This document shows, in pieces, positions 1 to 7,868 of a stretch of 64,000 bases of DNA. The stretch is from Verrucomicrobiota bacterium (GTDB lineage: Bacteria; Verrucomicrobiota; Verrucomicrobiia; Limisphaerales; J093), in the NCBI GenBank assembly GCA_016871715.1, contig VHCO01000006.1:1-64000 (forward strand), written 5' to 3'. Positions within the stretch are counted from its first letter, which is position 1, and every line of letters starts with the position of its first letter. The notes beneath the pieces are model-generated. The model saw nothing but the letters and a program-made list of their open reading frames with translations, ran no database searches and was not told the origin of the DNA. Made by a program: the position numbers and the translations under genes.

Positions 1-96
1 AAGCGAAAGCCCCGCGCAGCGGTCGCGATTTTTTTGTTTTTGAACATGACCCTTGGCAGTAGAACGCCCATGGGAGTGGCAACAGGAGCGCCAGAA

Positions 97-279
97 GGAG
101 CGCGGACATTCTTGTCCGCACGGCCGGCGGCGCACTACCCCGGGAACGACCCGGGCGAACCGACACTCGTGTCTGTTCGGGACGCCCACAGCGTGGGGCC
201 TCGGCCAAGAAGGGTCCACTGCCGCGCGGTTGGGCAAGAAGGTGCTTGCGCACAAAGCGGCCAGGAATGTCCGCGCTCC
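97..279. repeat. MITE-like element with 23-bp terminal inverted repeats
   Basis: Positions 97-119 and the reverse complement of 257-279 agree at 21 of 23 bases; the outer 15 are identical and begin GGAGCGCGGACATTC. The interior has no convincing coding frame and holds a CCACAG...GTGGG type motif also seen in the decayed region near 14.9 kb. I infer a small non-autonomous mobile or repeat element. The rest of positions 1-377 shows no gene, and in particular no recognisable end of a DGR target gene. Confidence 0.55.
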
Positions 280-377
280 CGAGTCCGCAGGGGGATCCGG
301 CCTTTGGACCTTGGGAAGACCCGAGTGGGAGGTGGGATCGGGATCCCAGACGAGCCGCTCCAGCGGGTGAATCGGCC

Positions 378-836
378 ATGCAACTGAAGACCTTCGTGCT
401 CCCGATCAAGAACCTGGCCGCCGCCGAGGCGGAGATGAACGGCTTTCTGCGCACGCACCGGGTGCTGGCGGTGAAGAAGGAATTCGTGCCGGACGGCGAG
501 AACGCCTTTTGGACGTTTTGCGTCGAATACCTCGACAGCCCGGCAGGCGCGCCTCCAGTGGGCGGCAAACCGCCCAAGGTGGACTATCGTGAGGTGCTCA
601 AGCCGGAGGAGTTCGAGGTGTTCAGCCGTTTGCGCGACTGGCGCAAGGGCGTGGCGGAACAGGAAGGGGTGCCGGTGTACGCGGTGCTGACCAACGAACA
701 GTTGGCCCAGATGGTGCAAAAGCGCGTCACCACCAAAGCCGGCTTGAAAGAGATCGAAGGCGTGGGCGAGGCGCGAATCGCCAAATACGGCGACGGCCTG
801 TTGGAGCGGATGGTGTTCAACCCCGTGCCGGGATGA
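378..836 (+). CDS. HRDC-domain protein, probable DGR accessory protein
   Basis: A 152-residue protein. The N-terminal ~60 residues form a small module beginning MQLKTFVLPIKN. The C-terminal ~75 residues have the HRDC pattern: a basic helix pair (RLRDWRKGVAEQEGVPVYAVLTNEQL), then a helix and the typical end GLKEIEGVGEARIAKYGDGLLE. HRDC domains bind nucleic acid, and HRDC proteins are a known accessory class next to DGR reverse transcriptases, where they replace or accompany Avd. The gene lies 125 bp upstream of the reverse transcriptase on the same strand. I chose the ATG at 378 because homology-like sequence begins there; the open frame extends upstream without a plausible N terminus. The domain call is firm; the DGR role follows from position. 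Confidence 0.82.
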   Translation: MQLKTFVLPIKNLAAAEAEMNGFLRTHRVLAVKKEFVPDGENAFWTFCVEYLDSPAGAPPVGGKPPKVDYREVLKPEEFEVFSRLRDWRKGVAEQEGVPVYAVLTNEQLAQMVQKRVTTKAGLKEIEGVGEARIAKYGDGLLERMVFNPVPG

Positions 837-859
837 GCCTTGCCGCGGAGAGAATGAAC

Positions 860-886
860 CACAAAGAACACAAAGAGCACAAAGAC
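860..886 (+). repeat. Three tandem copies of a 9-mer CACAAAGAN
   Basis: Three consecutive copies of CACAAAGA followed by A, G or C lie in the spacer between the HRDC gene and the reverse transcriptase. They are strikingly A-rich against the GC-rich surroundings. Function unknown; possibly a leader or unstructured RNA segment. Confidence 0.6.
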
Positions 887-961
887 CAGCCAGGGAGGCT
901 GGACCTGAGCTTCTCTTTGCGAGGGTTCCCAAGTCCTTGTGGGTGAACCGCGGTTTGTGGC

Positions 962-2299
962 GTGAAACGCAAGGGTCAATTGATGCAAGCGATTGTCAGC
1001 CCGGACAATCTGCGGCTGGCGTTTTGGAAGGCGGCCAAGGGCAAGGGCGGCAAGGCCGACTGTCGGGTTTTCCGCGAAAACCTGGAAGCCAACCTCGAGG
1101 ATCTGCGGGCTGATTTGCTGTCCGGTGAGGTCACGGTGGGCGACTACCACTATTTCAAGATCCACGATCCGAAGGAACGAACGATCTGCGCCGCGAGTTT
1201 CCGGGAGCGGGTGCTGCATCACGCGCTGATGAACGTGTGCGAACCGGTGCTCGAACGGGCGGCCGTTTTCGACAGTTACGCCTGCCGCAAGGGCAAGGGC
1301 CGGGAGGCGGCGATCCAGCGGGCGTGGGGATTTGCCCGCAGCCACGCCTGGTGCCTCAAGATGGATGTGCGGAAGTACTTCGACTCGATCGACCATTCGA
1401 TTCTGCTCGGTCTGCTGATGCGCAAGTTCAAGGACCCGGACGTGCTTGAGTTGTTCCACCGCATCCTCGTCAGCTATGAAGCCGCGCCGGGACGCGGTTT
1501 GCCGATCGGCAACCTCACTTCTCAGCATTTCGCCAACTTCTATCTGGCCGGCCTCGACCGGTTCGTGAAGGAAGAACTGCGCTGCCTCGCGTATGTGCGG
1601 TACATGGACGATTCGGTCGCCTGGGGCGATGGACCCGGGGAACTCAAGGTGCTTGCGAGCAGGGTCCAGGGGTTCCTGGCGGACGAACGGAAGCTGGAAC
1701 TCAAGGCCGGCATGGCGATCAACCGCACAGCGCACGGCATGGACTTCCTCGGATACCGCATATTCCCCAGTACGGTCCGCCTGGCGCGGCGTAGCAAGGT
1801 CCGCTTTGCGCGCAAGTTCCGCCGGTACGAGCAGGCGTATCTGCGGGGTCAATGGACCGAGCTGCACCTGCAGCAGCGGATGCAGGCATTGCTGGCCTTC
1901 ATTATGCCCGCCGACTCGTGGGCTTACCGGCGGCGGGTGCTGGAACGATTTGCCTGCCTGCCGCGTGACGAAGATGCGCGCCTAGGCGTGCCGTGCGCGC
2001 GGCGCAGGCAGGGGGTGGTGGCCCAGGGGCTCGAACCGGGTGATCCGGGGCGGCAGTTGGAACAACAACGCCAGGAACTGCCGGGTCACGAACCGCAACA
2101 ACGACTGGCCGGACAACAGGAACAACAACAACGGGTTCCGGTCCGTCCTCCCCCCAGCTCAATCCCGCGAGGCGGGACTGACCCGGCTGCCATCCTGTCC
2201 GGCGGAGGTTCTCCGCCGCCGGCAAACACGGCAAGCCCGCCCGGTGCCAGTAGTCCCGCCAGCGGCGGGATCGAAAACTCCGGGCGGGCCGTTGCCTAG
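962..2299 (+). CDS. Diversity-generating retroelement reverse transcriptase
   Basis: Copies the template-repeat RNA into mutagenised cDNA (A-to-N) used to rewrite a variable repeat in a target gene. The N terminus, MKRKGQLMQAI then a K-rich KAAKGKGGK, is typical of DGR enzymes and supports the GTG at 962 over the ATG at 983. Visible blocks are the catalytic KMDVRKYFDSIDH (Asp135), the motif-4 signature IGNLTSQ (182-188; DGR enzymes have xGxxxSQ where other retroelements have QG), YMDD (214-217), and FLGY (~262-265). The recognisable domain ends near residue 330-345. From about residue 360 the frame runs through the template repeat in a different register from the Asn-rich frame and stops only at 2299, so the last ~85 residues are low-complexity read-through or a true overlapping C terminus. 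Closest alternative, a group II intron protein, is excluded by motif 4 and the missing maturase domain. Confidence 0.93.
   Translation: MKRKGQLMQAIVSPDNLRLAFWKAAKGKGGKADCRVFRENLEANLEDLRADLLSGEVTVGDYHYFKIHDPKERTICAASFRERVLHHALMNVCEPVLERAAVFDSYACRKGKGREAAIQRAWGFARSHAWCLKMDVRKYFDSIDHSILLGLLMRKFKDPDVLELFHRILVSYEAAPGRGLPIGNLTSQHFANFYLAGLDRFVKEELRCLAYVRYMDDSVAWGDGPGELKVLASRVQGFLADERKLELKAGMAINRTAHGMDFLGYRIFPSTVRLARRSKVRFARKFRRYEQAYLRGQWTELHLQQRMQALLAFIMPADSWAYRRRVLERFACLPRDEDARLGVPCARRRQGVVAQGLEPGDPGRQLEQQRQELPGHEPQQRLAGQQEQQQRVPVRPPPSSIPRGGTDPAAILSGGGSPPPANTASPPGASSPASGGIENSGRAVA
2041..2160 (+). other. DGR template repeat (TR), adenine-rich
   Basis: Read from 2040 in the second frame this encodes IRGGSWNNNARNC, then RVTNRNNDWPDN, then RNNNNGFRSVLPP. 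Twelve codons are AAC, the hallmark of a DGR template, where A-directed mutagenesis of AAC can give many residues without stop codons. The peptide matches the C terminus of formylglycine-generating-enzyme-like (C-type lectin fold) DGR targets as I know the family. It begins about 80 bp after the recognisable end of the reverse-transcriptase domain, the expected position. The GC-rich 3' end (GGGTTCCGGTCCGTCC) would be the initiation-of-mutagenic-homing-like part. Exact boundaries cannot be fixed without the matching variable repeat, which is not in the window. Confidence 0.88.
2163..2177 (+). other. Short perfect hairpin just after the template repeat
   Basis: TCCCGC-GAG-GCGGGA forms a 6-bp GC-rich stem with a 3-nt loop within ~20 bp of the TR end. 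DGR loci often carry hairpins beside repeats; a role in cDNA priming or RNA folding is inference only. Confidence 0.5.
2187..2294 (+). repeat. DGR 3'-flank repeat, copy A
   Basis: About 108 bp starting CTGCCATCCTG and ending GGGCCGTTG, roughly 80% identical to 6683-6791. Copy A directly follows the template repeat; copy B lies beyond the toxin-antitoxin remnants. The pair brackets a 4.4 kb segment. After allowing a one-base insertion in copy B, one reading frame is conserved between them (AIL-SG...ANTA-PPGA-SP...GGIE), so an old coding origin is possible. Confidence 0.7.
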
Positions 2300-2440
2300 T
2301 CGGCTCAAGTGAGCAAGACGACCTGGCGCAGCGCCAGACCACGTCCACCCTGAGAGGCGACGCGGGGAATCGCCGAAGTTGGCTCTCGCTGAAGTTGGTT
2401 TGACATCGGCGCCGGGCCGCAGGAAGCTGGCGCCGCCATT

Positions 2441-2638
2441 ATGCCGCAGCGCGCTGCATCGAGGGCGAAGAAGCAACTGGACTACCCCGCCGAGACGCGG
2501 GGGAGCCGTCTGGCGGCCAAGGCCCGCAAGCTGGCCAGCCGGCACACCCCAGCACAACGCCGCGCCCATATGGACGCCGCAATGGCGATGGTCTATGGCG
2601 GCAGCCAGCCCAAAGAAGCAGCTCGCACTGGACGCTAA
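2441..2638 (+). CDS. Probable antitoxin of a PIN-type toxin module, copy 1
   Basis: A 65-residue basic protein (MPQRAASRAKKQ...RGSRLAAKARKLASRHTPAQ...). It precedes and overlaps a PIN-domain toxin frame by 44 nt, the usual antitoxin-toxin order. Two further degraded copies of the same sequence occur at 3822-4019 and 6446-6570; comparison of the three shows this is the only one with both ATG and stop intact. Its partner toxin is truncated, so the antitoxin is probably an orphan. Function is inferred from context and from similarity between copies, not from a named domain. Confidence 0.6.
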   Translation: MPQRAASRAKKQLDYPAETRGSRLAAKARKLASRHTPAQRRAHMDAAMAMVYGGSQPKEAARTGR

Positions 2639-2924
2639 TCTCCTCTTCGACCTGGCGGAGGAGCGAGACTTCGCTCTTGAGTTCCGCGAGGTCTTTCAGG
2701 ACCGAGGCTATCGACTCTTTCTCCCGCCGACCGCGTTGCACGAACTGCACACGATCTGCCTCGAAGCTGTGAATCAGCAGCCGCGTCAGGTCCGCCCGCT
2801 CCACGGGTGGGAGCGAGAGCGCCTCTTCGACCAGAGTGAGATTCGCCAAGGCCATGGCCGGAAACTAGCCGCCGACCGGATGAGGCGCGCACGGTCCTTC
2901 GGTTGTGGCGTGGCCGCATTGTGA
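2595..2924 (+). pseudogene. PIN-domain toxin, copy 1, C-terminally truncated
   Basis: Starts with an ATG inside the antitoxin gene. The N terminus reads MAAASPKKQLALDANLLFDLAE, a PIN-domain start with the first metal-binding Asp in LALDAN, then FREVFQDRGYRLFLPPTALHELH. Near position 2750 homology stops and the frame runs on through the antisense of another antitoxin remnant to a stop at 2924. The missing C-terminal half, with the remaining acidic residues, corresponds to what survives in copy 2. PIN toxins are RNases; this one should be inactive. Confidence 0.72.
2751..2855 (-). pseudogene. Addiction-module antitoxin fragment
   Basis: Reading leftward from the ATG at 2855 gives MALANLTLVEEALSLPPVER followed by ADLTRLLIHSFEADR, the N-terminal pattern of the putative addiction module component family (TIGR02574-like: two helices with an LPxxER turn). 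It breaks into the truncated PIN toxin near 2751. No cognate RelE/ParE-like toxin follows. Confidence 0.6.
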
Positions 2925-2930
2925 ACGGCG

Positions 2931-3217
2931 TCAGATCAACGGCTCGATCTTGCCGACGAGCTGACATCTGGATGACCACACCCAGAAAGCGGCTAAGTTC
3001 AGGCCTGAGCCAGCGCGGGGTCGCCGGCCGGCGTGAGGGCGGCGGCAGGCTGGCCCGTCACCTGCAACCAAAGGGACTCCGGGCCAAAGTCCAGTTGCTC
3101 ATCCCATCGCAGCTCGCCGGAGTCGCCAATGCACGCGCGGCGAAAATAGGCGTAATCCCGCCACGGCGCGTAAACCCCGGTGTGCGGTTTGCGGGCGAAC
3201 CGACGTTGACGCCTCAA
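2931..3217 (-). pseudogene. Degraded DUF4160/DUF2442 gene pair, copy A
   Basis: A damaged copy of the pair at 5704-6240. The DUF2442 part (2999-3217) keeps the C-terminal ~60 residues (RKPHTGVYAPWRDYAYFRRA...) but its first ~30 residues are replaced by unrelated sequence. The DUF4160 part has lost about 200 bp internally: its last codons (from 2931) are joined directly to its first codons near 2960, and its start codon ATG has become AGG (plus strand CAT to CCT). Sequence identity to copy B is very high, so the duplication is recent. Confidence 0.78.
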
Positions 3218-3240
3218 TGCCGCACGCTTAGTTTCCCACT

Positions 3241-3468
3241 ATGAGCACGGTCGCCGAAATCGAAGCGGCGCTCCGCCATTTGAGCGCCGAACAACTCTTG
3301 CGCGTCGAGCAGGCGTTGCACCAGCAGTATCGCCAACGAGGCGGGAGTCTCATCTACGACGATTCCTACGGAGTGGTGACGGACGCCGACTTGATCGCGT
3401 CGGCGGAGGAAGCGTTCTTGGCTTACGACAAAGAGGAGGCTGAAGGTGCCCAGCATCGAGCGCAGTGA
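3241..3468 (+). CDS. Antitoxin of a MazF/PemK-type module, module 1
   Basis: A 75-residue acidic protein (MSTVAEIEAALRHLSAEQLL...). The first ~25 residues form the helix and L-xAEQL turn shared with addiction-module antitoxins; the rest contains the linker-like DDSYGVVTDADLIA. It overlaps the MazF-like toxin by 23 nt in another frame, as is usual for translationally coupled modules. Predicted to bind and neutralise the toxin and to autorepress. Appears intact. Confidence 0.7.
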   Translation: MSTVAEIEAALRHLSAEQLLRVEQALHQQYRQRGGSLIYDDSYGVVTDADLIASAEEAFLAYDKEEAEGAQHRAQ

Positions 3469-4114
3469 AGTCTGGCTGGTGGACTTGGGTTTGGCGGCAA
3501 AAGCGCGCCCAGCCGTGGTCGTCAGCATCCCCTTTCTCGACAACGAACGTGCCGTCTATGCCATCGTGCCGCACACCACAGCGCGACGCGGCGGTCGTTT
3601 TGAAGTGGTCATTCCCGTGCCGTGGCTGGAGCCGGGGGCTTTCGATGTGCAAGGCATCCGCCATCTGCCCCGCCCGGTCTTCCTTCGCCGCTTGGGGGAC
3701 TTGACCCCGGCGCAACCCGAGGCCGAGCCCACCGTGCAAGGCGTCGGGGGCATCGCCGGATCTGGCTCTCGCCGAAGTTGGTTTGACATCGAGGCCGGGG
3801 CTGCCGGAAGTTGTCACTGCTTCGCCGCGGCGCACTGCATCGAGGGCGAACAAGCAACCGGACTACCCCGCCGAGACGCGGGGGAGCCGCCTGGCCGCCA
3901 AGGCCCGCAAGCTGGCCAGCCAGCATACGCCGGCCCAACGCCGCGCTCACCTGGACCCCGCGATGGCGATGATCTACGGCGGCAGCCAGCCCAAGGAAAC
4001 AGCTCGCACTGGACGCTCATCTCCTCTTCGACCTGGATTCGGCGGCGGAGGCGATCAGCGAGGAGTTCGCCCGGCGTCTGGGTGCGGCTCAGCTTATTCC
4101 CGCCGACGAGCTGA
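3446..4114 (+). CDS. MazF/PemK-family endoribonuclease toxin with aberrant C terminus
   Basis: The GTG at 3446 is used because the conserved fold begins at once: SEVWLVDLGLAAKARPAVVV is the PemK/MazF first strands with the RP-AVVV signature, and FLRRLGDLTPAQ is the usual late motif. The conserved domain spans about residues 1-105. After about GVGGIAGSG the frame enters the PIN-module repeat and adds some 115 meaningless residues, so the normal stop was lost when the neighbouring element was joined here. The protein may be unstable or inactive; frame-level damage inside the domain is not visible. Confidence 0.65.
   Translation: MPSIERSEVWLVDLGLAAKARPAVVVSIPFLDNERAVYAIVPHTTARRGGRFEVVIPVPWLEPGAFDVQGIRHLPRPVFLRRLGDLTPAQPEAEPTVQGVGGIAGSGSRRSWFDIEAGAAGSCHCFAAAHCIEGEQATGLPRRDAGEPPGRQGPQAGQPAYAGPTPRSPGPRDGDDLRRQPAQGNSSHWTLISSSTWIRRRRRSARSSPGVWVRLSLFPPTS
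3822..4019 (+). pseudogene. PIN-module antitoxin, copy 2, start and stop lost
   Basis: Same sequence as the antitoxin at 2441-2638 (DYPAETRGSRLAAKARKLAS is identical) but the ATG region has changed and the stop TAA has become TCA at 4017-4019, so the frame runs on to 4532. Upstream DNA shared with copy 1 begins near 3766, so the repeat unit includes leader sequence. Confidence 0.75.
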
Positions 4115-4287
4115 ACGACGGCAGGATCCTCGCCGAGACCTCCTTGGCCGCCATCCCGCTGCTTGTGACCTCGGACAAGCACCTGCTCGACATCGACGAA
4201 GACGCGTTGATCCTCGCATTCAACGACGCCGATCTGACGCCCGTCCGTGCTGCCCACCCCAAGCGCCTCTTGCGGGCCTTGCGCTGA
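3976..4287 (+). pseudogene. PIN-domain toxin, copy 2, internally deleted and without start codon
   Basis: The start ATG of copy 1 is ACG here (3976-3978). The reading frame otherwise stays open to TGA at 4285-4287. It keeps the N-terminal LALDAHLLFDL, then jumps to the C-terminal half: AISEEFARRLGAAQLIPADE, the ETSLAAIPLLVTSDKHLLDI segment with the late acidic residues, and the ending HPKRLLRALR. About the middle third of a PIN domain is missing. Because it lacks a start codon it would be skipped by automatic gene callers. Confidence 0.78.
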
Positions 4288-4763
4288 TCCGGGCGCTACG
4301 CCCGACGTACACACCTTGCTCCCGAAGGCAGGAATTGCTCAACCCCGGCGGCTCCGCCCGCCACCCAAGCGCGCAACAAGCCGACCTGGCACGCCTGCGG
4401 ACCATCGTGGGAATGAGTGCCAATCCCGGACGGGCGCCACACCGGAGAGGCGCTGGCGCCGGCTACGGTCCGACGAACCGTAAATCTCTAGTGCAACAGA
4501 TTGCAGCACCACAACTGCCTTTTGGTGCGTGAAAACGGCAAGTGGTCTGAAACGGCCGAATTGCAGTTTGTGCCTGGATTCATGGGGTCTTTGTGCACAT
4601 TTGTGCCGTGGTCACGAAACATGATCAACGGTTTCTGGAAACGGGCCGCGCCTGGCTATTGGATGTGGAACAGGCCGCCGGCATCGCGAGAGAGGATGAG
4701 CGTGGGCGGGGTGATGACGGAAGCGGTCGTCGTCAGCGTGAAGATCGTGGGGGCCGTAGGCGG

Positions 4764-4960
4764 GCACCAAGTTCAGGCCGTTGCCGGGCGTCACCCCGCC
4801 CAGTTCCATCTGCAACACGCCGGCGGTGGTCTGGGTGTGATTTGTGTTGATGGTGAGCCTGCCGGGCGAACTGCCGGGACTGGCGACGGCCCCGTTGACG
4901 ACCGCGCCGTCGATTGTGCCGCTGCCCGAAAGCGTGCCGCCGGAGAAAGTGAACGGGCTG
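4764..4960 (-). pseudogene. Fragment of an autotransporter-type beta-strand-repeat protein
   Basis: Minus-strand frame reads FTFSGGTLSGSGTIDGAVV, ASPGSSPGRLTIN and TAGVLQMELGG, the pattern of beta-strand repeat passenger proteins common in Verrucomicrobiota (GTLSGSGTI...SPGxSPGxLTI...QTxxGVLxMELGG). Flanking frame has no further similarity, so it is a remnant. Apart from it, 4288-5017 shows nothing I can identify. Confidence 0.6.
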
Positions 4961-5017
4961 ATCCTCGAGCGGATCGTGTCGCACACTCGATCGAAGTGGC
5001 GCGCTCGAACACGCTTC

Positions 5018-5362
5018 TTACCTGGACAAGTCGGCCGCGAAGGCTGCTGCCATTTGCTGCCAAACCTCTGCGACCCTACGGCCATCGTCGAGATGTAAAC
5101 GCCCGACCTTGTGATGGACGAGCCGACGATCAACGGTGGTGAGTTTGGTCAGGCGGACGGTTGAGGCGTACGGCAATCCCGCGTCCGACCACCGGTTAAG
5201 GGCCACGTCGGCGAGTTCGCGCGGGGGGTGCGTCGTGATCCGGGCGACGAGCACATCGGCGTCGCCCGCGACCAGCACTAACCCTGGGCGACGCCTGCCG
5301 GTTTGCAGATTGGAAAACGGGAACTCGACCGCAACCACATCGCCGGGCTCAAATGCCGTCAT
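5018..5362 (-). CDS. MazF/PemK-family endoribonuclease toxin, module 2
   Basis: 114 residues, normal for the family. Starts MTAFEPGDVVAVEFPFSNLQ, has RRRPGLVLV (the signature arginine-proline and strand), VARITTHPP, LPYASTVRL and LTTVDRRLVHHKVGRL near the C terminus. The ATG at 5362 lies 14 nt inside the antitoxin gene, giving translational coupling. Expected activity is sequence-specific mRNA cleavage. It appears intact, unlike the toxins to its left, and only distantly resembles module 1. Confidence 0.8.
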   Translation of the reverse strand: MTAFEPGDVVAVEFPFSNLQTGRRRPGLVLVAGDADVLVARITTHPPRELADVALNRWSDAGLPYASTVRLTKLTTVDRRLVHHKVGRLHLDDGRRVAEVWQQMAAAFAADLSR

Positions 5363-5534
5363 ACACGCGGTCGTCGAGCGAGCCGTCTTGGAAAAAGCTC
5401 TCGAGGCCCAGCCGCTGCCAATCGAGGTCTTCGGGGTCACGCCCGATCAACTGGGGCAGGTCCTTGTAAAGCCGGAGCTGCTCGGGCAGCGGCAAGGTCT
5501 CGATCGCCGCTTCGATTTCCGGCAATGTTTTCAC
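5349..5534 (-). CDS. Antitoxin of MazF/PemK-type module 2
   Basis: 61 residues from the GTG at 5534 (VKTLPEIEAAIETLPLPEQL...LDDRVYDGI). The first 25 residues match the helix-turn style of addiction antitoxins; the acidic C-terminal tail would bind the toxin. An in-frame ATG at 5570 adds 12 residues without similarity. Overlaps its toxin by 14 nt. Likely functional. Confidence 0.7.
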   Translation of the reverse strand: MKTLPEIEAAIETLPLPEQLRLYKDLPQLIGRDPEDLDWQRLGLESFFQDGSLDDRVYDGI

Positions 5535-5703
5535 GCCCGAAAGACTATCGCCCGCCGTACCGATTGGCAAGGGTGGCTCCGAGTGATGCGCATCCGCGTC
5601 CGGCGCGGTCCATCGTTTCCCTCCGCTTCAACTCCTCTGACTCTGACTGGAGATGAGGCGCGCACGGTCCTTCAGTTGCGGCGTGGCTGCATTGTGAACG
5701 GCG

Positions 5704-5963
5704 TCAGATCAACGGCTCGATCTTGCCGACGGGCTGGTCGGTTTGGGCCGCTTCCCAGCACCGCAACAATTCCGCCTGGTGCAGCACGGCCCATTCGGTG
5801 ACCTAGCCCAGAACGCGCGGTGGGAGTCGACCCGGATGATGGCCGGAGCGCGGATGGAAATCTGGGCGGCGAATTCCCCGTAAATGGCGTGGAAATGCGG
5901 CGGCGGATGCTCGTCGCGATACATCTGGATGACCACACCCAGAAAGCGGCTAAGTTCAGGCAT
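5704..5963 (-). pseudogene. DUF4160 gene, copy B, frameshift plus nonsense codon
   Basis: Starts MPELSRFLGVVIQMYRDEH with the DUF4160 pattern PPHFHAIYGEF. Around plus position 5820 the frame slips by one base; in the corrected frame a TAG follows and then the usual family ending VTEWAVLHQAELLRCWEAA and KIEPLI with a stop at 5704-5706. DUF4160 genes often sit next to DUF2442 genes in toxin-antitoxin-like pairs; this copy should be non-functional. Confidence 0.8.
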
Positions 5964-6240
5964 GAGCCAGCGCGGGGTCGCCGGCCGGCGTGAGGGCGGC
6001 GGCAGGCTGGCCCGTCACCTGCAACCAAAGGGACTCCGGGCCAAAGTCCAGTTGCTCATCCCATCGCAGTTCGCCGGAGTCGCCAATGCACGCGCGGCGA
6101 AAATAGGCGTAATCCCGCCACGGCGCGTAAACCCCCGTGTGCGGTTTGCGGGAGAAATTCACCTCCCCCTCAGCCCCGTCGTTGAAGCGCAGCCAGACGC
6201 GATAACCGTCGAGCACCTTCAGAGCGGTGATGTTCTTCAT
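5956..6240 (-). CDS. DUF2442-family protein, copy B
   Basis: 94 residues: MKNITALKVLDGYRVWLRFN, EGEVNFSRKPHTGVYAPWRD, DSGELRWDEQLDFGPESLWL. This is the normal DUF2442 layout of a small beta domain followed by the W-(D/G)-LDF-P-xLW motif. It overlaps the DUF4160 gene by 8 nt on the same strand. The family is considered a probable antitoxin-like partner of DUF4160 but the biochemical role is not established. A degraded duplicate lies at 2999-3217. Confidence 0.8.
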   Translation of the reverse strand: MKNITALKVLDGYRVWLRFNDGAEGEVNFSRKPHTGVYAPWRDYAYFRRACIGDSGELRWDEQLDFGPESLWLQVTGQPAAALTPAGDPALAHA

Positions 6241-6445
6241 AAGCCAAAACCAGCGACACCAGGCAGCACACGAACCGGTCGTCGATCACCTGGAGGGCCG
6301 CTCGGTTCATGGGCAGAAGCGAGTGTTTCCGAGTGGGCGCCGCAAGAGGGACTGGCTGGTACTGAAGGAAGCAACAGCGGTCCGGGGGTCGGTCCTGGAA
6401 TTCAGGGGACATCGGCGCCGGGGCGCGGGCGCTTGCCCCTCTGTT

Positions 6446-6570
6446 ATGCTGCAGCGCGACACATCAAAGGGCACGAAGCCCTTGGACTACCCAAACGAGA
6501 CGCGAGGGAGCCGTCTGGCGGCCAAGGCCCGCAAGCTGGCCAGCCGACACACGCCAGCACAGCGCCGCGG
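6446..6570 (+). pseudogene. PIN-module antitoxin, copy 3, 3' truncated
   Basis: Begins with an ATG as in copy 1 and keeps LDYPNETRGSRLAAKARKLA and SRHTPAQRR, then breaks at about 6570 into a different protein fragment. No toxin remains. Upstream DNA shares the GACATCGGCGCCGGG leader of copy 1. Confidence 0.75.
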
Positions 6571-6672
6571 TCGGGGCAGAACCAGGTGTCGATTTCCTGG
6601 GAGGCGCAGGCCGGCAAGTCGTACCAGCTCAAGACCACGACGAACCTGCTGACGCCCTGGCACGTCCTGGCC
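6571..6672 (+). pseudogene. C-terminal fragment of a secreted verrucomicrobial protein
   Basis: Reads QVSISWEAQAGKSYQLKTTT then NLLTPWHVL, the common C-terminal module of large secreted proteins in this phylum (SW-A-GKSYQL-T-NL--PW). It is sandwiched without spacers between the PIN-antitoxin fragment and the DGR-flank repeat copy B. Otherwise 6241-6878 contains only these mosaics and a terminator. Confidence 0.55.
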
Positions 6673-6682
6673 ACAGACCGGT

Positions 6683-6791
6683 CTGCCATCCTGGTCCGGC
6701 GAAGGAGTGAGGGCGCCGGCAAACACAGCAACCCCGCCCGGCGCCGGGAGTCCCATCAGAGGCGGGATCGAAGACTCCAGGCGGGCCGTTG
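6683..6791 (+). repeat. DGR 3'-flank repeat, copy B
   Basis: About 109 bp, ~80% identical to 2187-2294, including the ends CTGCCATCCTG and GGGCCGTTG. No template- or variable-repeat-like sequence precedes this copy. Confidence 0.7.
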
Positions 6792-6816
6792 TTCGGCGGG
6801 GCGTGGTTGGTCTAGC

Positions 6817-6878: not shown

Positions 6879-7868
6879 TCAGTGTTTCTGCCGCCGGCGC
6901 CAGAGCAAGAACAGGCCGCAGCCCAGCGCCGCTGCCACGCCGTACTCGGCGGGTTCGGGCACGGCGATGTCAGCAATGACGCCGCTGGTGTCGGTGTAAC
7001 CGATAATGGACTTCACGCTGAGCGTTGCGCCGGTGTTCTTGTCGATCTCGTACAGGTAGTCTTTGCTCACGGCGTACATCTTATCGTTCCAACTGTCATA
7101 GGCGATCTGGCTCCACTCTGGGAAGACCGTGCTCAGGACGCCGACGCCCACGCCTGGAGTGGTGATGTTGCCGTGCCAGTAGCCTTGCAGAGCCAGGCCG
7201 CCGCCGAGGTTGTCGGGGTAGCTATATCCCCAGAGCTCGCCGGTGGAGATGTTCACCGTGAAGTCGCCCAGATCCGAGAAGCCGTTCGGGTAGGCTGCGC
7301 CCCATCCGGAGGTCGGAGCGCCACTGGTGCCGCCGTAAATGCCAGCCGACACAATGCCCGTGCCCAACGGGTTGAGGCCAACCTCGACCATGAACGAGAT
7401 CGGTTTGCCCGGCGGGATAGCAGGGTAAGCGCTTTCGCTCTTGAGGTCTAAGGTAAGATAGTACCTCCCGTCGAACGAGGTGGCTCCACCGTTGATCGAG
7501 TAGCTCGACAGATGCGGGTAGGTGGACAACGGGGCTACGGCGGCCAGGTTGCCCAGGTAGTCGAACGTCATCGCGTTGAGCGAGAAGCCATACACGTTGA
7601 GGGTCTTGTCGTTGCCGAAGATGAGCATGTTCCGGGTGTGATCATAGGCCAGCCCGTTCATGCGATTCTTCGGATCGAGGTCCCAGCCCGGGACGTTGGC
7701 CGAGGTGATGTCGAAGATCCTCGTCGCCTGGGCCGTAACCGGATCGAACTTCCAAATGTCGTTCCCGACGCCAAAGATTGGATTCAACTGCGCCTGTGCG
7801 GCCGATGCGAGGAAACCGACACTCACAGCCGCCAACACCAGCGCCGTACTGTTTGTCCTGTGTTTCAT
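6879..7868 (-). CDS. PEP-CTERM sorting-domain protein
   Basis: 329 residues. The N terminus MKHRTNSTALVLAAVSVGFL-ASAAQAQ is a signal peptide. The middle (about 40-300) has propeller-like strands (FDPVTAQATRIFDI, GLAYDHTRNMLIFG, WSQIAYDSWNDKMYAVSKDY) and may bind ligands in the matrix. The C terminus is VPEPAEYGVAAALGCGLFLL then WRRRQKH: PEP motif, membrane segment and basic tail, the signal for exosortase/EpsH-type processing in exopolysaccharide-producing Gram-negatives. Start at 7868 is chosen for the signal peptide. Monocistronic, with its own promoter and terminator. Confidence 0.88.
   Translation of the reverse strand: MKHRTNSTALVLAAVSVGFLASAAQAQLNPIFGVGNDIWKFDPVTAQATRIFDITSANVPGWDLDPKNRMNGLAYDHTRNMLIFGNDKTLNVYGFSLNAMTFDYLGNLAAVAPLSTYPHLSSYSINGGATSFDGRYYLTLDLKSESAYPAIPPGKPISFMVEVGLNPLGTGIVSAGIYGGTSGAPTSGWGAAYPNGFSDLGDFTVNISTGELWGYSYPDNLGGGLALQGYWHGNITTPGVGVGVLSTVFPEWSQIAYDSWNDKMYAVSKDYLYEIDKNTGATLSVKSIIGYTDTSGVIADIAVPEPAEYGVAAALGCGLFLLWRRRQKH

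Follow-up and report, generated by a model that had tools for sequence, protein, structure and literature searches.

The window analysed here, a stretch of 64,000 nucleotides (G000:C6:1-64000; genome G000 comprises 8.58 Mb in 554 contigs), opens with a cassette of an HRDC gene, a reverse transcriptase (RT) and a template repeat (TR) that is a genuine diversity-generating retroelement (DGR). With a probability of roughly 0.92, we read it as part of a cellular verrucomicrobial DGR in the order target - HRDC - RT - TR - spacer RNA, of which the target half lies on another contig, C174, and the rest on C6, with about 200-250 nt between the two missing. Directly 3' of the TR, as in DGRs of the BPP-1 type, lies a folded RNA, a structured element conserved by covariation (Table 1). 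An earlier note on this DNA had headlined the absence of a local target; we attribute that absence to the assembly, as C6 begins with the spacer that follows the variable repeat (VR) and C174 ends at the start of the VR, and a false case of a DGR without a local target is thereby resolved.

Table 1. Features of the DGR and its relic in the window.
Feature	Position	Strand	Evidence or remark
Conserved piece of VR-to-HRDC spacer	1..35	+	hairpin CCGC-GCA-GCGG, then T-run
HRDC accessory protein, 152 aa	378..836	+	Pfam PF00570, E 6.7e-19
DGR RT ORF	962..2299	+	PF00078, E 2.5e-13; IGNLTSQ, YMDD; start GTG 962 or ATG 983
Template repeat (TR)	2026..2161	+	approximate span of TR/VR-type homology; IMH*-like 3' end CCCCCCAGCTCA; 5' end matches C174 VR start
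Structured spacer RNA 3' of TR	2151..2296	+	covariation; single-sequence fold z = -4.1; model matches
TR end pairs with spacer	2159-2161/2179-2181	+	
Spacer RNA hairpin	2163-2168/2172-2177	+	
Spacer RNA hairpin	about 2196-2224	+	
Spacer RNA long stem enclosing conserved GTAG, hairpin and CGAA	2235-2244/2280-2289	+	
Hairpin inside long stem	2253-2260/2264-2271	+	
Relic part 1: 5' coding fragment of C174-type target gene	6555..6693	+	82.7% to C174:14758-14893, E 2e-34
Relic part 2: decayed second spacer RNA copy, without TR or RT	6673..6793	+	81.5% to window 2177-2294, E 1e-25

The HRDC protein, the RT with IGNLTSQ and YMDD and the template repeat with twelve AAC codons were all confirmed, in order, where the earlier note had placed them, and its reading of the locus as a DGR that has HRDC as accessory and an FGE-type protein as target is supported. 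The RT carries both DGR-type motifs (GxxxSQ and YxDD) and is 61-72% identical to the RTs of complete verrucomicrobial DGRs. The conserved stretch of the RT reaches to about 2008, beyond which no stop interrupts the frame across the TR and the spacer RNA. The accessory gene of a DGR may be Avd, HRDC or MSL and is here HRDC; there is no space for Avd between HRDC and the RT, and matches to PF05635 are confined to other contigs of the genome. Proteins 28-77% identical to the HRDC protein occupy the equivalent position in 13 related loci. The TR is A-rich and close to the RT (31 A in 103 nt), and its frame from 2040 reads VIRGGSWNNNARNCRVTNRNNDWPDNRNNNNGFR, in which AAC codons number exactly 12. 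The HRDC-RT-TR order is seen again in relatives whose RTs are 53-72% identical to this one, and is therefore not due to chance. A search of viral_contigs returned nothing beyond two distant RT relatives. Four other RTs of the genome (C284, C177, C158 and C326) were rejected as DGR RTs, as they resemble those of group II introns.

Relatives were collected by a GTDB genome scan with the RT, which gave 15 loci, and by a family search, which gave one (in G002, on the same contig as L046); 12 distinct loci hold both a TR and a VR of the window type (L045-L047 and L049-L057). In these 12 relatives the bias towards adenine that marks a VR is found in full: across the TR and VR cores (about 100 nt), 201 of 360 A positions differ, against 3 of 864 non-A positions. 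In 11 of the 12, the distance from the end of the VR to the downstream RT is 0.57-1.22 kb, with HRDC between in ten; in L056 the VR lies downstream of the TR, and in L045 other sequence takes the place of HRDC. That replacement (L045 4434-5624, about 1.2 kb) contains an ORF resembling a REP-associated (IS200-type) transposase. In L051, two neighbouring VRs (5956-6086 and 7291-7421) accompany one TR, making two targets of one DGR. In the most distant relative, L058, the TR and VR are of a different type, and L044 and L048 lack a visible VR because their contigs begin in its last codons.

In the window itself, no second copy of the TR core is found on either strand of the 64 kb with the template adenines left free, which bears out the earlier note's observation that no VR lies within the 64 kb. 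Position 1 of the window is the first base of C6, so the lack of a target to its left says nothing about the genome. The genome search with the template that the earlier note had proposed returned, besides the TR itself, a 20-nt exact match at the very end of C174: the last base of this contig, 17442, closes a stretch identical to the opening 20 nt of the TR core, and the full match extends over 34 nt with a single difference, at a template adenine (TR A to G). Those 34 nt are the whole extent over which the locus's own VR can be compared with the TR, as the VR body is absent from the assembly. The match is in the reading frame of a gene and encodes the C-terminus of its product, an exported Ig-FGE protein that has a signal-peptide-like start, an Ig I-set domain and an FGE-sulfatase domain; the protein breaks off at ...GSDRVIRGGS where the TR reads ...VIRGGSWNNN, so that C174 stops a base or two ahead of the first DGR-variable codon. 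For its FGE domain the closest counterpart, at 78-80% identity, is in the target of the DGR in G002, which belongs to the same family. The window TR ends in AGCTCA, like the TRs of the relatives, and most of the relatives' VRs end in AGGTCA; the 3' end of its own VR falls outside the assembly.

The left end of the window supplies the other side of the break. In five relatives (L043/L046, L044, L045, L047 and L048), a conserved spacer piece, CCCGCGCAGCGGTCGC followed by a T-run, lies about 100-160 nt downstream of the VR and upstream of the RT/HRDC genes, and the window starts with the same piece (window 7-35 is 96.6% identical to L045 4559-4587). Since the window opens with this post-VR spacer, the target gene should end shortly left of position 1; together with the end of C174 and the cis targets of the relatives, this strongly supports a target in cis, just left of position 1, which was one of the two options that the earlier note had left standing. 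From the spacer at the start of C6 and the end of C174, we therefore predict a gap of about 200-250 nt between C174:17442 and C6:1, which would hold the bulk of the VR together with the start of the intergenic spacer. On these grounds we infer that C174 and C6 are adjacent, and the probable cause of the gap between them is a VR that could not be assembled. Counting against adjacency, about 330 nt between the spacer piece and HRDC in the window are absent from the relatives. Repeat collapse was rejected as the cause of the start of C6, window 1-377 being nearly single copy. GlgC-MTAP genes lie near both DGRs, upstream of the target in C174 and downstream of the DGR in G002; being on opposite sides, they are suggestive only and do not prove adjacency.

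C174 and C6 are separate contigs that no sequence in the assembly joins, and remote DGR targets are on record (PMC4891356; PMC8144416), as would suit an RT-TR unit devoid of a cis target that diversifies C174 or another gene at a distant site. Against such a unit, the conserved post-VR spacer is present at window 1-35, the relatives keep their targets in cis, and the contig ends fall at the expected places on both sides; we thus hold action in trans alone, the other option of the earlier note, to be very improbable, and it need not be assumed. A DGR with its target in cis also accords with the fate of related assemblies: counting the window locus, 3 of 16 distinct loci are cut within the VR, as would be expected if population variation breaks assembly. 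Because a hypervariable VR can break metagenome assembly, DGRs in metagenome-assembled genomes (MAGs) can look as if they had no target. Our literature search found no report of contigs breaking in a VR.

FGE-like proteins are known DGR targets, and FGE-like targets are also present in annotated DGR loci. The 26 FGE matches in the genome were considered as alternative targets of the window TR. The closest among them were rejected as present targets since they break the rule that only adenine positions differ: C339 shows 11-12 non-A differences, C139 shows 13, C246 shows 12 and C5 shows 19. On C139 (L002, 1501-1627), an isolated fragment of an FGE C-terminus that is 73% identical to the TR sits between unrelated genes, and is likely a remnant of an old VR or TR.

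The genome also holds two decayed DGRs. In the window relic at 6555-6793, a fragment of the target gene is fused to a DGR spacer RNA in the same orientation with everything between them deleted, which lends independent support to a C174-type target beside this DGR; the RNA model recognises the spacer RNA part with an E of 2.6e-13. The second (L060, G000:C246 5070-5940, minus strand) retains an FGE-VR, a truncated HRDC gene and a spacer RNA, with the RT and TR missing. The C246 VR agrees far better with the TR of the relative L044 than with the window TR: it differs from the former at 28 of 33 A and 5 of 69 non-A positions (Fisher p 4e-15), an adenine bias that we read, from this alignment, as the trace of a related TR having diversified it in the past. 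Separately, repeated segments 83-98% identical lie downstream of the DGR (2322-2655, 3706-4036 and 6408-6569; 2879-3199 and 5652-6156), forming a duplicated, decaying stretch. With two relics in the same genome, the window cassette might likewise have ceased to work while its sequence stayed intact. We consider this unlikely: the RT motifs, HRDC, TR and spacer RNA are all intact, the score of this spacer RNA is 115 bits where the relics reach 61-74, and C174 breaks exactly where variation should begin.

Over the roughly 145 nt after the TR, stems are conserved more than sequence in 14 DGRs. Among these 14 sequences, 92% of the cells in 22 pairs are standard pairs, and 59 double changes are found against 20 in shuffles, with slid partners pairing at 30-44%. 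Extending the alignment to 29 distinct sequences gave compensatory changes at 19 of the 22 pairs and 152 compensatory double-change cells against 48 in shuffles, with slid partners pairing at 30-45%; the 14-sequence test is the cleaner one because the larger alignment was fitted to the model. The TR end itself joins the fold through pairing between UCA, from AGCUCA, and UGA, two strands that co-vary in L051 and L055.

The RT frame runs without a stop before the TR in the window (962-2299) as well as in L044-L049, L052, L054, L055 and L074-L076. Read-through would give the RT a TR-encoded tail, putatively Gln-rich in close relatives; other relatives stop before the TR. In the window and L044-L049 the frame runs on across TR and spacer; together with a common Gln-rich reading and a DPAAILS-like stretch, this could be taken to mean that the conservation 3' of the TR is that of a protein-coding RT tail and not of RNA structure. 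We consider that reading highly implausible, given the excess of compensatory double changes over shuffles and the poor pairing of slid partners in the 29 sequences. Moreover, the RT stops before the TR in L051, L053, L066, L068, L071 and L073, which have the same RNA, the frame from RT to TR varies among loci, and in L070 the TR-RNA unit lies ahead of both HRDC and RT.

A scan of 388 genomes of the phylum with a covariance model of the structured RNA (R1) detected 12 strong matches beyond the training loci and G000 (E up to 3e-8). Each of the 12 begins where a TR ends on its 3' side, one of these TRs being truncated, and a DGR RT lies within 1.5 kb for ten, one of the other two being near a contig end; no RT is close to any of the nine weak matches (E from 4.5e-4). 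In L069 (G290:C90, 970-1116), the spacer RNA follows the 3' part of a TR alone with no RT found nearby, and is probably a relic. Gene orders around the TR-RNA unit comprise RT-TR-RNA, TR-RNA-HRDC-RT and RT-TR-RNA-HRDC, the unit in L074 as well as that in L070 being placed differently relative to HRDC and RT. A search of window 1-6000, the spacer RNA included, against Rfam 15 found no match, and as far as Rfam and our literature search show, this RNA has not been described for this DGR group. That search found no published spacer-RNA consensus, though one may exist in structural work on the BPP-1 RNA. At about even odds, we propose that the ~145-nt element is an undescribed RNA family, a core shared by DGRs that have HRDC and no Avd and, more remotely, by many Avd DGRs with FGE targets; the TR-RNA unit would be kept while the protein genes shuffle, and in the HRDC-type group HRDC would replace Avd in the RNA-protein complex. 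With the model, TRs and DGR relics can be sought where an RT or VR is lacking, and how cDNA synthesis begins in HRDC-type, Avd-less DGRs becomes directly testable.

Taken together, these elements suggest how the DGR probably works. The target would be the exported Ig-FGE protein, whose C-type-lectin VR lies at the C-terminus, and the RT would copy the TR RNA, misincorporating opposite adenines. By analogy with BPP-1, the folded spacer RNA may organise the RNA-protein complex, in which HRDC presumably has a part, and position the start of the cDNA at the 3' end of the TR. The cDNA would then replace the VR of the neighbouring target and so alter the ligand-binding surface of the exported protein, a cycle that the intact cassette may well sustain at present.

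The DGR of Bordetella phage BPP-1 (brt/Avd/TR/mtd) likewise combines an A-specific TR and RT with a folded RNA 3' of the TR, and differs in having Avd instead of HRDC and in placing TR and spacer ahead of brt. In BPP-1 the spacer separates TR from brt; it folds, brings in bRT-Avd and provides the adenine used for priming (PMC12875486), and the window RNA is its probable counterpart. The RNA model finds no match in the BPP-1 spacer with filters off; given no detectable homology, the window RNA is best said to work, probably, like that spacer and not to belong with it. At the same setting, DGRs of Prosthecochloris, Ideonella, an Aeromonas phage and Nostoc give their best matches (E 0.001 to about 1) at a distance of 33-76 nt from the TR on its 3' side, with weaker ones, also 3' of the TR, in those of Photobacterium and Microcystis. 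FGE-targeting Avd DGRs (Prosthecochloris plasmid pPAES01, Nostoc and Ideonella) share FGE or similar targets with the window, and of its RNA the outer stem with GTAG/CGAA is the only clearly common part; the pPAES01 DGR has both Avd and HRDC, whereas the window has HRDC without Avd.

HRDC is already known as a DGR accessory (PMC4891356, PMC10053308). In the HRDC-type DGRs of Treponema denticola, HRDC lies next to the RT and C-type-lectin-like targets comprise core and remote ones (PMC4891356); there, TR and RT flank HRDC, which overlaps the RT gene (PMC4891356), whereas in the window HRDC is upstream of the RT and the TR follows it. Closest are the verrucomicrobial DGRs in public MAGs (L044-L049, L052, L054 and L055), which share the target-HRDC-RT-TR order (L045 without HRDC), RTs within the 53-72% identity range, an FGE-type TR and the spacer RNA, and differ in having the VR on their own contig, except where the contig itself begins within the VR (L044 and L048). 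The cassette thus adds another member to DGRs already known, among which an HRDC accessory, remote targets and FGE-like targets have all been seen before.
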